From Streptomyces sp. ISL-87 (GTDB lineage: Bacteria; Actinomycetota; Actinomycetes; Streptomycetales; Streptomycetaceae): 64,000 nucleotides of DNA. Numbering within the stretch: the stretch's first letter is position 1; the number at the start of each line of letters is the position of its first letter. Below the pieces are notes generated by a model. That model was not told where the DNA came from, made no database searches, and saw nothing but the letters and a program-made list of their open reading frames with translations. The stretch is taken from positions 62,001 to 126,000 of the forward strand of contig NZ_JAGGOY010000008.1 in assembly GCF_018614095.1 (NCBI RefSeq), in the 5' to 3' direction. Positions 541 to 5,226 of the stretch are shown here, one piece after another. Made by a program: the position numbers and the translations under genes.

Positions 541-1407
541 ATGACCCAACCCACCGACAATTGGCGAGAGCACCGGCTCCGTCTGCGGACCGCACTCTGG
601 CTCGCTGAGATCGGCCTGCCCGTGCTGCCCTTGCGGGAGGGCAAGCTCCCCGTCGGGAACTGCCCGGCCTGCTCCGGCAGTGCCTGCGGGGACCGGCCGC
701 ACATGAAGGCGGCCGGGCCGTGCCAGTGCCCGGCCCCGTGCCACGGCTGGGCCGCCGCCACCACCGACCGCGGCGTCCTCACCTCCCCGGCCTGGGCCAC
801 CGCCTGGCGCCAGGCCGGAGCCATCGCCTATCACCCCGGCGGCGCCCGCCTCACCGTCGTGGACCTCGACAACCCCGACGCCGTGGCCTGGGCCCACCAG
901 AACCTCCCCGCCACGAAGGCCGTGGCCACGACGCGCGGGGAGCACTGGCTCTACAGGGGCGCCATGCAGTCCACCAACGGGGTCCGGCCCGGCGTCGACA
1001 TCAAGTCCTCCATGTCGTACGCCCGCTGGTACGGCCCCGGCACCGGCCCGATCGTCGCCCTCCCGGACATCGTCCGCGCGCTGGCCGTGAAGGAGTCCGC
1101 GTCCCGCCCCGTGTCCCACGCGATCAGCGTTCCCACGGTGGCCGACGGCGGGCAGTGCCGTCACCGCACCCCCGCCTTCCTGGAACGCGGTATCGCCATG
1201 GCCGAGCAGTCCATCACCGCCGCCCAGAGCGCGATCCACAGCAACGTGTACCGGGTGTTCCTCGCGGTCCTGTCCACCCACGGCCGGTGCGGCTGCCTCA
1301 CCGAAACCCACGTCGAGCGGCTCTTCACCGCCGCGCACGCCAAGGGCGAATCCACCCGGCACTGCACCGCCGCGTGGGCCAACGCGCGCACCGCATTGGG
1401 GCTGTGA
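541..1407 (+). CDS. Bifunctional DNA primase/polymerase (Prim-Pol) of the integrative element
   Basis: The protein has 288 residues and carries an archaeo-eukaryotic-type Prim-Pol domain. Visible motifs are the metal-binding pair D108 and D110 (VVDLD), a catalytic-type His at H135 (GEHW) and a third acidic residue D153 (GVDIKSS). Cysteines at 41, 44, 49, 61, 63 and 67 suggest a zinc-binding insert before the catalytic core. A GGAGAG ribosome site precedes the ATG. Its stop overlaps the next start by one base (TGATG), so primase and ATPase are translationally coupled. In AICEs such a protein serves autonomous replication after excision. Confidence 0.85.
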   Translation: MTQPTDNWREHRLRLRTALWLAEIGLPVLPLREGKLPVGNCPACSGSACGDRPHMKAAGPCQCPAPCHGWAAATTDRGVLTSPAWATAWRQAGAIAYHPGGARLTVVDLDNPDAVAWAHQNLPATKAVATTRGEHWLYRGAMQSTNGVRPGVDIKSSMSYARWYGPGTGPIVALPDIVRALAVKESASRPVSHAISVPTVADGGQCRHRTPAFLERGIAMAEQSITAAQSAIHSNVYRVFLAVLSTHGRCGCLTETHVERLFTAAHAKGESTRHCTAAWANARTALGL

Positions 1408-2879
1408 TGTCCGACGACGAGAAGAGTTCGGGCCGCGAGGTCATCACCGGCTACGCGCAGGACAACTTCCGGTACTTCCGCACCGCCGACGGGACCGTGT
1501 ACGCGCAGAAGAACGGCCACCCCGTCGCGCGCCCGATCCGCTCCCAGGGCACGTCCGGCAGCCACCGCCAGGAGCTCATGGTCGGCCTCTACGAGAACGG
1601 ACACGGCGTGTTCAACGGCACCGCGCTCAAGGAAGCCCTCGACCTCATCGAAGCCCTGGCCCTGACCAAGGACGTTCAGCCCGTACACATCCGCGTCGCG
1701 CCGGGCTTCGACGGCGCGACCTGGCTCGACCTGGGCCGCAACGACGGGCAGTCCGTACGCATCCACCCCACCGGCTGGGACATCCTCACGCCCCAGCCGG
1801 AAGAGGTCTGCTGGCGGCGCACCCAGCTCACCGGAGAACTCCCGCTCCCTGCCAAGGACACCGACGGAAAGGGCATCGACCTGCTCCTGCGGCTGTGCAA
1901 CTTCGCCAACGCCGAGACCGAGTGCCTGGCCGTCGCGTGGCTGATCGGGTGCCTCGGGCCGTCCGTGCCCGTCCCCGCCCCGTTCCTCACCGGCCCCCAG
2001 GGCGCCGGCAAGTCCACCGGCGGAAGGATGCTCGTGCGGATCATCGAGGGCATGAGCGGCGATCTGCGCCGCGCCCCGAAAGACGAAGAGAACCTGATCG
2101 CGGCCGTCGCCGCCGGATGGGTCACCGCCCTCGACAACCTCTCCCACCTCGCCCCGGACCTGTCCGACCTCATGTGCTGCATCGTCACCGGAGCCGAGAC
2201 CATCAAGCGTGCCCTCTACACCGACGGCGACGTCGTCCGTGCCCGCTACCGCCGGCCTCTCCTGCTGACCGGTATCGACGTGGGCGTCATCCGCCCCGAC
2301 CTTGCCGAGCGGCTCCTCCCGCTCCGCCTGGAGCGCCCCACCGTCCGGCGGACGGAGGCGGAGCTGTGGCGGGAGTTCGAAGAGGTCCTGCCGGTCACCC
2401 TGGGGTCCCTGCTCGACCTCACCGTCAAGGTCCGCGCCGCCGAGGCCGACATCCCCACGGATCTGAGGATGGCCGACTTCGCTCACCTGTGCGCGCAGCT
2501 CGATGCTGCGACCGGCCTGGGAGCGCTCGCCGCCTACCGGGCCAGCCTGGATGAACTCAACGACGACGTCATCGAAGGCGACCTGCTCGCCCAAACCGCG
2601 CTGAAGCACGCCGCCACCCTCGAAGCCGGTGAGGGGGCTCGTATGACCTCGGCGGAATGGCTGCACGCCCTCACCCAGCTCTATACCGGAGAGGACTTCC
2701 GCCCCCTGCCCAAGGGGTGGCCCACCACCGGGAAGGTCCTCTCCGACCGTCTCAAGCGACTGCAGCCCACCCTCGCCGCACGGGGAGTCCTCGTCGACTG
2801 GGGCCGTACCAAGACGGCCCGCTACATCGAGATGACCCGACCCACCCCGACCGCGCCAGAGCAGCAGGAAGCGTTCTAG
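1407..2879 (+). CDS. ATPase/helicase-like replication protein coupled to the Prim-Pol
   Basis: The start is the ATG overlapping the primase stop by one base; the frame is open further upstream but that part lies inside the primase gene. The product has 490 residues. The clearest motif is a Walker A loop at residues 196-204 (GPQGAGKST), followed by a Walker B-like segment near residues 239-244 (VTALDN). The arrangement suggests a superfamily 3 or DNA-packaging-like ATPase that works with the primase to open and copy the excised circle. This two-gene layout is typical of Prim-Pol AICEs. The gene is followed by a strong hairpin. Confidence 0.8.
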   Translation: MSDDEKSSGREVITGYAQDNFRYFRTADGTVYAQKNGHPVARPIRSQGTSGSHRQELMVGLYENGHGVFNGTALKEALDLIEALALTKDVQPVHIRVAPGFDGATWLDLGRNDGQSVRIHPTGWDILTPQPEEVCWRRTQLTGELPLPAKDTDGKGIDLLLRLCNFANAETECLAVAWLIGCLGPSVPVPAPFLTGPQGAGKSTGGRMLVRIIEGMSGDLRRAPKDEENLIAAVAAGWVTALDNLSHLAPDLSDLMCCIVTGAETIKRALYTDGDVVRARYRRPLLLTGIDVGVIRPDLAERLLPLRLERPTVRRTEAELWREFEEVLPVTLGSLLDLTVKVRAAEADIPTDLRMADFAHLCAQLDAATGLGALAAYRASLDELNDDVIEGDLLAQTALKHAATLEAGEGARMTSAEWLHALTQLYTGEDFRPLPKGWPTTGKVLSDRLKRLQPTLAARGVLVDWGRTKTARYIEMTRPTPTAPEQQEAF

Positions 2880-2907
2880 CCCAGGGCATCCCGGGCCGCG
2901 GGCACAA

Positions 2908-2951
2908 GCAAGAGGAGCACCCCCGGCCAAGGCGCGGGGTGCTCCTCTTGC
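2908..2951 (+). terminator. Strong hairpin terminator after the replication genes
   Basis: Two perfectly complementary 16-base arms (2908-2923 and 2936-2951) enclose a 12-base loop, 29 bases after the ATPase stop. There is no long T-run, which is usual for Streptomyces terminators. Confidence 0.8.
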
Positions 2952-3049
2952 CTATCCGGCGGCTTGCCGCCGCTGCAAAGGTCGTGCCGCGCAGCGGCCC
3001 CTTCTTCTCGCTTTGGACCTGGCGCACTACGACAGACACCCGCCCTTCT

Positions 3050-3297
3050 TGTCCGAAGGAAAGGGATCCTGCGTCATCCGCGTCACCGGGGGGTCAGAAA
3101 CGATCTATGACCTGCGGTTTCCCCGGTGACGCAGGACGGCCGGAGCTGCGTCACCCCGCGTCACCCGCGTCACCGATGACGGAGACCACCCCGCCCGGTG
3201 ACGCACCCCCCGACAGTCAGCGTCACCGGAAAGCCGCAGGTCAGGCAGCACGAGTGACGCGGGTGACGCGGTGACGCAGAATCCCGCCCTTCGGACA
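3050..3297. repeat. 248-bp imperfect inverted duplication packed with GCGTCACC/GGTGACGC iterons
   Basis: Eleven copies or near copies of GCGTCA(C/T)C or its complement start at 3071, 3080, 3125, 3148, 3158, 3167, 3197, 3220, 3254, 3262 and 3270. The region folds on itself. TGTCCGAAGG at 3050-3059 matches the complement of 3288-3297. The 24-base segment 3109-3132 pairs with 3220-3242 with few differences. The outer iterons also lie in mirror order. The centre of symmetry is near 3174. The region is non-coding, between the replication genes and the excisionase. By position it could be the element's replication origin, a repressor operator array or a plasmid-type partition site; the sequence does not decide between these. 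Confidence 0.8.
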
Positions 3298-3347
3298 GCA
3301 CAACCCACCTGACAACCCAGCACACCGCAAGCCAAGGAGTGGAACTC

Positions 3348-3536
3348 ATGGCCCGCCCCCAGATGCTCAAGCTCGCGGAAGTCCTCACCGAGATCGACAT
3401 GAGCCGTGCCGCCTTCTACCGGCTGCGCGCTCGGGGCAACGCGCCCCGCCTCTTCAAGCTCCCGAACGGTCAGCTCCGTGTCCGGCGGGCCGACCTTGAT
3501 GACTGGCTGGCTGGCTGCGAGGCATCGGCCGCATAG
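3348..3536 (+). CDS. xis: Excisionase (recombination directionality factor), helix-turn-helix
   Basis: The protein has 62 residues from the ATG at 3348, which has AAGGAG eight bases upstream; a GTG at 3339 is in frame but overlaps that ribosome site. The sequence is a MerR/Xis-type winged helix: a helix-turn-helix around MSRAAFYRLRARG and a basic wing ending in RVRRADLDDWL. The small size and position just before the integrase gene identify it as the probable excision factor that bends DNA at the attachment site. Confidence 0.82.
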   Translation: MARPQMLKLAEVLTEIDMSRAAFYRLRARGNAPRLFKLPNGQLRVRRADLDDWLAGCEASAA

Positions 3537-3600: not shown

Positions 3601-5004
3601 TTGTACAGCTACGACGTACGGATCTGGGGCATCCGGACCCGCCAGAGCAAGAGCGCCCCCTACCAACTCCGATGGATCGTGGGTGGCGAGGAGCACCAGG
3701 CCCCGTTCCTGACCAAGACTCTGGCCGATGGTCGACGTGCTCAGCTCATGGAGGCCGTTCGCAAGGGTGAGCAGTTTGACGTGTCGTCCGGGCTGCCGGT
3801 TTCCGAGCTTCGTCAGCTCAAGTCGCCCACCTGGTTCGAGCACGCCAGGGCCTACGCCTGTATGAAGTGGCCGGGCGCTGCGGCCAAGCACCGAGTCGGC
3901 ATCGCTGAGGCGATGACGAACGTGACCATGGCCCTCGTCACGAGCGGAAAGTCGGCTCCCGACCCGAAGGTGCTGCGGCTGGCCTTGCGGTCATGGGCCT
4001 TCCAGATGACGTTGGACCCTCAGGGGAACGCCGTCCCCCGCATGAAGGCCGAACCGCCGCCGGCGCCCGCAGCCCAGGCTCTGGAGTGGATGGCCAGCCA
4101 TTCCCTCCGTGTGTCCGAGGTCGCGGAGGCTGAGAACCTTCGCCGCGCTCTTGCCGCCATCTCCCAGCGTCTCAATGGGAAACGCGCGGCGGACAACACG
4201 ATCCGGCGTAAGCGCGCCGTCCTGAGCAACGCCCTCCGGTACGCCGTCGAATGCGACACCCTGCCCGCGAATCCGCTGCCCAAGGTCGACTGGGACCCTC
4301 CGCAGACCGACGACGAAGTGGACTTCCAGTACGTTCCCGGGCCCGAGCTGACCCGTCGGCTCCTGGACGCCGTCCAGGCCCAGGGCAGCCGCGGCGAGCA
4401 CCTCCACGCGTTCTTCGGGTGCATGTACTACGCCGCGATGCGCCCGTCTGAAGTGGCAGCCCTCGCCAAGGGCGACTGCAAGTTGCCGTCCACGGGCTGG
4501 GGGGAGCTGGTGCTGCGCCGAAGCCGCCCTGAGGTTGGGGCGGGTTGGACGGACGGCGGAACGCCCTACGACGATCGGGGGCTCAAGCGGCGGGCGCGCA
4601 AGGCCAGCCGGTCGGTGCCCGTGCCGCCGGCGCTCGTACAGCTACTCCGGAGCCACCTGGAGCGCGAAGGGATGGCTACCGATGGTCGGCTGTTCCGTGC
4701 GGTGGAAGGCGGCCGGGTCGGCTCCAACGAATACACCCGCGTATGGGACGAAGCGCGGGAGAAGGCGCTGCCCGCAGCGGATGTGAATACGCCGCTCGCA
4801 GAGGTCCCCTACTCCCTGCGGCATGCCGGCGTCTCGCTGTGGATCAAAGCGGGCGTCGACCCGGTGGAAGTGGCCCGCCGGGCCGGCCACAGCGTGGCCG
4901 TCCTCTGGAAGTTCTACGCGAAGATCCTGCGAGGCCAGCAGCAGGTGTCGAACCAGCTCATTGATCAGGCTCTGGCAGAGGATGACACCCCCGCAGGGGC
5001 CTGA
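3601..5004 (+). CDS. int: Tyrosine site-specific integrase of the integrative element
   Basis: The start is taken as TTG 3601, preceded by CGGAG at a spacing of five; TTG 3586 is an in-frame alternative. The product has 467 residues. Catalytic residues of the tyrosine recombinase fold are R281 (AAMRPSEV), R407-H408 (YSLRHAG), H430 (AGHSV) and the nucleophile Y439 (WKFYAKIL). The N-terminal half has the arm- and core-binding regions usual in Streptomyces element integrases. The stop lies 135 bases from the 3' end of tRNA-Ser, placing the attachment site beside the gene as in pSAM2-type elements. All key residues are present, so it is probably active. Confidence 0.93.
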   Translation: MYSYDVRIWGIRTRQSKSAPYQLRWIVGGEEHQAPFLTKTLADGRRAQLMEAVRKGEQFDVSSGLPVSELRQLKSPTWFEHARAYACMKWPGAAAKHRVGIAEAMTNVTMALVTSGKSAPDPKVLRLALRSWAFQMTLDPQGNAVPRMKAEPPPAPAAQALEWMASHSLRVSEVAEAENLRRALAAISQRLNGKRAADNTIRRKRAVLSNALRYAVECDTLPANPLPKVDWDPPQTDDEVDFQYVPGPELTRRLLDAVQAQGSRGEHLHAFFGCMYYAAMRPSEVAALAKGDCKLPSTGWGELVLRRSRPEVGAGWTDGGTPYDDRGLKRRARKASRSVPVPPALVQLLRSHLEREGMATDGRLFRAVEGGRVGSNEYTRVWDEAREKALPAADVNTPLAEVPYSLRHAGVSLWIKAGVDPVEVARRAGHSVAVLWKFYAKILRGQQQVSNQLIDQALAEDDTPAGA

Positions 5005-5116: not shown

Positions 5117-5139
5117 GACCTGCCACTTCACTGACCTGG

Positions 5140-5190
5140 CGGTGGGTGTGGGATTTGAACCCACGGTGACATCGCTGCCACGACGGTTTT
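5140..5190. other. Probable attachment site (att) of the integrative element in the 3' half of tRNA-Ser
   Basis: The integrase gene ends beside the 3' end of an intact tRNA gene. AICEs characteristically recombine into the 3' half of a tRNA and restore it. The exact core cannot be set because the second copy (the other element end) lies left of the window; the boundaries given are the anticodon-to-acceptor segment. Confidence 0.5.
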
Positions 5191-5226
5191 CAAGACCGTT
5201 CCCTTAGGCCGCTCGGGCAACCCACC
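5140..5226 (-). tRNA. tRNA-Ser (anticodon UGA)
   Basis: On the minus strand an 87-base class II tRNA can be drawn. The acceptor stem GGTGGGT pairs with ACCCACC, followed by discriminator G. The D arm begins TGCCCGAGCGG, the anticodon loop reads CTTGAAA giving anticodon TGA, a long variable arm follows, and the T loop is GTTCAAATC. CCA is not encoded. The gene is the likely integration target of the neighbouring element. Confidence 0.95.

Follow-up and report, generated by a model that had tools for sequence, protein, structure and literature searches.

The window analysed here (C145:62001-126000 of genome G000, Streptomyces sp. ISL-87, 64 kb in all) has at its left edge the right part of one integrated Streptomyces element (Table 1). 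This element has the features of an AICE, namely an integrase, direct att repeats at a tRNA gene and its own Prim-Pol with an ATPase partner, the primase and the ATPase being encoded by two separate genes (541-1407 and 1407-2879) and not forming one polypeptide. As the repeat at 5139-5198 recurs at C145:53594 (L003:7595-7652; 60-column match, 96.7% identity), the length of the element can be estimated at about 13.5 kb. A protein encoded upstream (L003:13345-15438) resembles the FtsK/SpoIIIE family PF01580 slightly below the cut-off (E 8e-5, 22.6 bits, cut-off 24), and a gene with GntR and NUDIX domains (L003:7735-8691) is located immediately inside the left att repeat. The original prediction had placed a block of iterons between the Prim-Pol/ATPase genes and xis, and this is indeed where it lies: the ATPase gene ends at 2879, the array occupies 3050-3297 and xis starts at 3348.

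Table 1. Features of the element in the window (window coordinates) and the basis of each assignment
Feature	Position	Strand	Basis
Prim-Pol primase/polymerase	541..1407	+	PF09250 E 5e-10, above cut-off; match in 80/80 relatives
ATPase, second gene of the replication pair, proposed origin-binding helicase	1407..2879	+	Walker A GPQGAGKST by eye
ATPase C-terminal domain, predicted winged helix, proposed iteron reader	2565..2876	+	AlphaFold2, covariation, wing insertion
Hairpin behind the ATPase gene, possibly a terminator or an accessory part of the origin	2908..2951	.	Inverted-repeat scan; arms conserved
Candidate replication origin, dyad-symmetric array of 11 GCGTCA[C/T] units	3050..3297	.	At least 6 units in 79/80 relatives and 60/60 further loci
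Left arm of the inverted duplication	3050..3173	+	Aligned globally with the reverse-complemented right arm
Outer end TGTCCGAAGG, family motif TTnTCCnAAG	3050..3059	+	Left-end motif in 73/80 and 46/60 loci
Units 1-2 (GCGTCATC, GCGTCACC)	3071..3087	+	Slots kept in 81/81 and 70/81 loci, window included
Inner inverted element, left copy, holding most of TGACCTGC	3109..3132	+	TGACCTGC in 47/80 and 25/60 loci
Unit 3	3125..3132	-	Slot kept in 79/81
Units 4-6, tandem at 9-10 bp	3148..3174	+	Slots kept in 77/81, 74/81 and 72/81
Right arm of the inverted duplication	3174..3297	-	Same global alignment
Unit 7	3197..3204	-	Slot kept in 67/81
Unit 8	3220..3227	+	Slot kept in 69/81
Inner inverted element, right copy (GCAGGTCA)	3220..3243	-	GCAGGTCA in 63/80 and 43/60 loci
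Units 9-11, tandem at 8-9 bp	3253..3277	-	Slots kept in 62/81, 68/81 and 81/81
Outer end CCTTCGGACA, commonest reverse-strand form TGTCCGAGG	3288..3297	-	Right-end motif in 72/80 and 48/60
xis (HTH_17), outside the origin module	3348..3536	+	Domain match; in 15/80 relatives
Tyrosine integrase, outside the origin module	3601..5004	+	PF00589; match in 20/80 relatives, some weak
tRNA-Ser	5137-5226		tRNA scan
att repeat inside the tRNA-Ser gene	5139..5198	.	Partner about 13.5 kb upstream, outside the window

Within the array, GCGTCACC is found on the + strand at 3080-3087, 3148-3155, 3158-3165, 3167-3174 and 3220-3227 and on the - strand at 3125-3132, 3197-3204, 3262-3269 and 3270-3277, and two units are variants, GCGTCATC from 3071 (+) and GCGTCACT at 3253-3260 (-). 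The eleven-unit block that had been predicted is confirmed by its density: the 248 bp carry 11 units, against at most two in any other 248-base window of the 64 kb (step of 5 bases, 3000-3400 left out), and 2000 dinucleotide shuffles of 3050-3297 never gave more than three. Mean AT content reaches its maximum, 0.51, near 3045-3070, and there is no clear AT-rich unwinding element. A scan for sigma-70 promoters over 2850-3400 found none, and the five hits of an Rfam scan are at chance level, all far under the gathering scores. A DnaA role of the outer ends was considered and rejected: TTGTCCGAA at 3049 agrees at 7 of 9 positions with the Streptomyces DnaA box, but the forms found in the family end in TAAG, GAAG or GAGG and not in ACA. 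Elsewhere in the same genome, a short tandem run of GTGACGC (G000:C92:44660-44717; L133:5161-5218) sits between two open frames resembling, by eye, glutaredoxin and a NUDIX protein. Five element proteins were compared and have no match in the 10.5 kb around this run, which is either a chance look-alike or a remnant.

The mirror symmetry originally ascribed to the units holds in part: four pairs (8 of the 11 units) are positional partners, and the units at 3158, 3167 and 3253 have none, so that the centre of the array is not symmetric. The further claim that the two halves are diverged inverted copies is borne out. The left half aligned with the reverse-complemented right half scores 44.5 (2000 shuffles: mean 1.2, maximum 18.5), and the score is still 18.0 when all units are masked, a value reached by none of 5000 shuffles; the inverted duplication is therefore real and no mere by-product of the units. 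Likewise, the ends said to match (3050-3059 and 3288-3297) form a perfect 10-bp inverted repeat, and the match of the inner 23/24-mer holds with a small gap. In the relatives described below, the symmetry that remains after masking the units and removing the outer 10 bp is weaker (median z 1.9), and 23 of the 105 testable loci (of 141) exceed all 100 shuffles in this masked test. As inverted repeats must, the block folds as a single strand to one large hairpin (z -9.7), and a cruciform is possible at this place. The stretch between the ATPase gene and the block also folds (2880-3045, z -4.2), and it contains conserved hairpins, one at 2908-2951 and others, smaller, as far as 3000, which may serve as a terminator or as an auxiliary element. 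In the hairpin arms (2908-3000), the sequence itself is conserved over the 81 loci, beyond pairing and more than a terminator seems to need.

A scan with the ATPase yielded 336 relatives, of which the best 80 (85-92% identity) were kept and searched for matches to the element proteins (tblastn, E 1e-3). At least six GCGTCA units are present in 79 of these 80 (median 12), for the most part with the placement and direction that they have in the window; with the window included, the slots at 3071 and 3272 are present in 81 of 81 loci and the least kept window slot in 62. The sole exception, L005, is the closest ATPase relative of the 80 and has a degenerate array with three intact units, the layout being kept. 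All of 60 further loci, from other genomes, carry 6 to 16 units at that place, and a locus on a viral contig (L132, 88%), left out of the counts, also has the array. The lack of the repeat in close relatives, which would have refuted the original prediction, is therefore not what the loci show, although the closest of them has it in degenerate form.

Arrays are also found on free plasmids. Among 28 plasmid records that encode a relative of the ATPase, eight Streptomyces plasmids were inspected (four as whole records), and all eight have arrays. Three plasmids, with an ATPase 68-69% identical, have 11-12 exact GCGTCACC units following the ATPase gene, and in three others (58-60%) a similarly arranged array consists of 9-12 GCGTCCCC units. 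The last two (35-36%), one of which is pFP11, have 9-10 GCGTCCC units, located several hundred bp farther downstream of the gene. The element's Prim-Pol has matches in five of the eight plasmid stretches, and several of the inspected plasmids have an annotated 'recombinase family protein' of the serine type. One plasmid bears, on the opposite strand, a second, partial ATPase-like stretch (L086:3221-3901; 33%).

In a distant set of 35 chromosomal loci (ATPase 26-42% identical), a 7-mer present at least eight times in 300 bp was sought up to 2 kb downstream. Such a 7-mer occurs in eight loci, one of these arrays being probably coding. Two distant arrays are strikingly mirror-symmetric, that of L118 (ACCGTCCA, >>><<<>>><<<) and that of L114 (GCGTCACC, <<<<<<>>>>>>, about 1 kb downstream). 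By the 7-mer measure, the 27 other loci, including nearly all the phylum-level ones, have no array, 4 of the 35 having fewer than 130 bases downstream. The GAGGGGC repeats of L109, located 545-1440 bases behind the ATPase match and mostly in one orientation, were discarded as an array, being probably repetitive coding sequence.

The base that follows GCGTCA is either C or T, and the units of one locus tend to agree (variance of the allele between loci 0.072; 2000 permutations: mean 0.020, maximum 0.033). A locus was assigned the T allele when T is present in at least 0.6 of its units, and this allele was compared with the proteins in a first set of 81 loci, in 60 held-out loci and in the pooled 141 (140 for the Prim-Pol tree), using shuffles and Mantel tests that leave relatedness among loci in the statistics. 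In the first set, the ATPase tree needs 4 allele changes (minimum of the shuffles 9) and the Prim-Pol tree 12 (mean of the shuffles 12.3). The corresponding numbers are 11 (minimum 20, 141 loci) and 21 (minimum 21, 140 loci) for the pooled loci, and 8 (mean 12.0, equal to the minimum of 200 shuffles) and 9 (mean 11.2, minimum 7) for the held-out ones. Within the ATPase, the segment most strongly correlated with the allele is residues 396-490 (r 0.315, with 300 permutations reaching at most 0.136, 81 loci); this segment gives a modest z of 2.3 in the 60 held-out loci, where it is the only one clearly above 0, and a z of 3.9 in all 141. None of the other protein segments tested covaries positively with the allele. 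In the pooled 141 loci, negative values occur for other segments, the lowest being z -3.2 for the spacer 3228-3252, and we cannot explain them. The third codon positions of residues 396-490 give r 0.187 (permutation maximum 0.176) and those of residues 321-395 give 0.156 (maximum 0.165), and the values for noncoding DNA nearer the array are 0.063 (maximum 0.213) and, at 2960-3045, 0.162 (maximum 0.246); linkage therefore explains part, probably not all, of the covariation. A C/T code of two residues (431 and 474), chosen on the first set, was abandoned, as it holds only partly in the held-out loci, where T-type loci make up 7/13 of the L/L loci against 6/47 of the others (p 0.004, relatedness ignored).

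As part of the covariation with the ATPase may be linkage, the array might be an origin read mainly by the Prim-Pol or by a host protein. This appears unlikely, since the allele changes on the Prim-Pol tree look random or nearly so and since the unit changes within the family, which argues for a reader encoded by the element. The Prim-Pol is also less conserved than the adjoining ATPase (63-81% against 84-92%). With this lower conservation and a tree that does not follow the iteron allele, it looks, as far as sequences can tell, as if it had been exchanged separately.

A Pfam scan of the window ATPase returns no family, and its profile has no match among solved structures at E <= 1. A VapE match below the cut-off (E 0.02-0.05) in 3 of the 7 relatives scanned makes the protein possibly of a VapE/SF3-like kind. 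The model of the full-length ATPase is poor (pLDDT 49), whereas the C-terminal domain modelled alone with AlphaFold2 has a mean pLDDT of 84 and the winged helix order H-E-H-H-E-E. Among the structural matches of this model are the RepE-iteron complex (Z 6.0) and the origin-binding domain of P4 (Z 5.5), a likeness at the level of a common fold because many other winged-helix proteins score alike or higher (unrelated winged-helix rows up to 7.1), and a Foldseek search with the model gives nothing at E <= 0.001. The two GCGTCCCC plasmids that were aligned have the same recognition helix as the window (KGWPTTGKVLSDRLKRLQPTLAARG), and in their wing there is an insertion with extra basic residues. 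The ATPase probably reads the units via its C-terminal winged helix; we infer that the invariant GCGTC would be recognised by the recognition helix and the varying 3' end by the wing. The unit allele would in that case set the match of an initiator with its own origin.

The genes that accompany the array differ widely. The Prim-Pol has a match in all of the best 80 relatives, Xis in 15 and Int in 20, and 60 have neither Xis nor Int; Tra ranges from no match (29 loci) through 20-40% identity (33 loci) up to 97%, the missing matches of Xis, Int and Tra being partly a length effect because some loci are short contigs. None of these three proteins has a match in the eight plasmid stretches (E 1e-3). 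The array goes neither with Xis/Int, as an arm-site array would, nor with Tra, as a clt would. Over the 81 loci, column conservation is 0.94 at 3278-3297, 0.59 at 3298-3310 and 0.43 at 3311-3343; since it drops past 3297, the replication module appears to stop where the dyad ends on its right side.

These data bear on three other roles. Repression of xis/int had been one of the functions proposed originally, and the array could more generally be an operator or arm-site array to which Xis, Int or a repressor binds, controlling xis/int or excision. It does lie directly upstream of xis, its right end being 50 bp before the start of this gene. Such a main role is nevertheless very improbable, as 60 of the 80 loci lack both an Xis and an Int match and yet, one exception aside, the array is kept, as its conservation ends at 3297, before xis, and as arrays are present on plasmid stretches that match neither protein; a side effect of the array on xis transcription may exist. 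Partition, the other function suggested at the outset, finds no support: a parS-like centromere would suit the ParA gene annotated near the array on all eight plasmids (the next gene behind it in six) but is very unlikely, since the unit allele covaries with the replication ATPase. Equally remote is a transfer site (clt) read by an FtsK-like Tra, for although Streptomyces clt sites are likewise short repeats, with TGACACC units reported in that of pWTY27 (PMC3583192), the array is kept where Tra is unmatched or only distantly similar.

By contrast with these roles, replication of the excised circle, the remaining function of the original prediction, is well supported by an array that tracks the Prim-Pol and the ATPase amid differing Int, Xis and Tra and that also occurs on free plasmids. 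The array has the features of an iteron origin, i.e., short repeats in noncoding DNA beside rep genes, and a related rep gene is associated with an array on autonomous plasmids. From these comparisons of sequences, we consider it probable (about 80%) that the segment is the replication origin of the excised element, with the ATPase as the reader of its units. Its functioning could be pictured in the following way. After excision of the element, the ATPase would bind the units in both arms. The dyad would hold it in opposite orientations, so that two helicase rings would be loaded in opposite directions, as the arrangement of the arms suggests. The two rings would then open the DNA, and the Prim-Pol would prime bidirectional theta replication.

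By analogy, such an origin would belong to a known kind: its closest counterparts would be the iteron origins of pWTY27 and pFP11, and it would work like those of P4 alpha and pRN1. The origin of phage P4 has iterons, other than those of the element. In pWTY27, repA, repB (a predicted Prim-Pol gene) and a 300-bp iteron segment are each reported to be needed; RepA binds the segment, in which both strands carry iterons and a long inverted repeat is present, and replication is taken as bidirectional (PMC3583192). This plasmid resembles the element in having a Prim-Pol (RepB), a second Rep and, next to them, noncoding iterons in both orientations together with a long inverted repeat, but its unit is GTGGGAAC (PMC3583192). 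In the same report, the rep/iteron loci of pFP1 and pFP11 are described as bound by their own Rep proteins (PMC3583192). pFP11 encodes a protein 36% identical to the ATPase, with GCGTCCC units behind its gene, and its RepA is reported to bind the iterons (PMC3583192); it differs by this unit and by the position of its array, several hundred bp more distant downstream and preceded by another annotated gene.

AICEs with a Prim-Pol gene and then a SCO4618-like one have been described, with SLP1 as the model; the module of SLP1 (SCO4617/SCO4618) likewise consists of a Prim-Pol gene and a second replication gene behind it (PMC3218068). In this SLP1-type text, 'iteron' and 'ori' are absent as words (PMC3218068); a clone of SLP1 rep/imp is mentioned elsewhere (PMC3212956), and a search by terms in a further article gave no passage on AICE origins (PMC9513070). 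The ORF904 protein of pRN1 is comparable in combining Prim-Pol, SF3 helicase and a C-terminal winged helix, with a stem-loop (inverted-repeat) origin just downstream of its gene; for pRN1, the authors evoke 'not yet identified sequence motifs' (PMC4234260). It differs in that these domains form one polypeptide and that its origin is devoid of iterons (PMC4234260). The alpha protein of phage P4 also joins primase, helicase and a C-terminal winged-helix origin binder, but its primase is of bacterial type and it is again a single polypeptide (PMC4234260). The original remark that no published AICE iteron has this sequence fits our search of the open-access literature, with few subscription papers covered, in which its closest relatives were those of plasmid origins (pFP11 and pWTY27). 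An AICE origin of this sort, a conserved dyad plan and a link between unit and winged helix were not found in the open-access literature, and no origin named for this ATPase was found in the literature searched.

A broader proposal, to which we would give rather less than even odds, is that the dyad-symmetric iteron origin is the general origin of actinobacterial split Prim-Pol/helicase replicons, linking the P4-kind iteron origins with the stem-loop origin of pRN1. Each subfamily would have its own unit (GCGTCAC, GCGTCAT, GCGTCCCC, ACCGTCCA and others), coded by the wing of the helicase. Wing and unit would set the incompatibility of co-resident elements, and integration and transfer modules would be exchanged freely at the edge of the array. 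The analysis provides a specific hypothesis for origin recognition by initiators of this class, a 248-bp piece that is directly clonable, and a computational route to such origins together with a marked module boundary.

With the genome of the window included, the ATPase is present (E 1e-20) in 157 of 392 Streptomyces genomes, 109 of 293 in the order and 17 of 396 in the phylum; given how frequent the ATPase is in Streptomyces, few mobile-element origins of the genus may be more common than this one. Among the matches listed, ATPase identities are bimodal, being either at least 81% or at most 45%, and members at 58-69% are found only in the plasmid collection.
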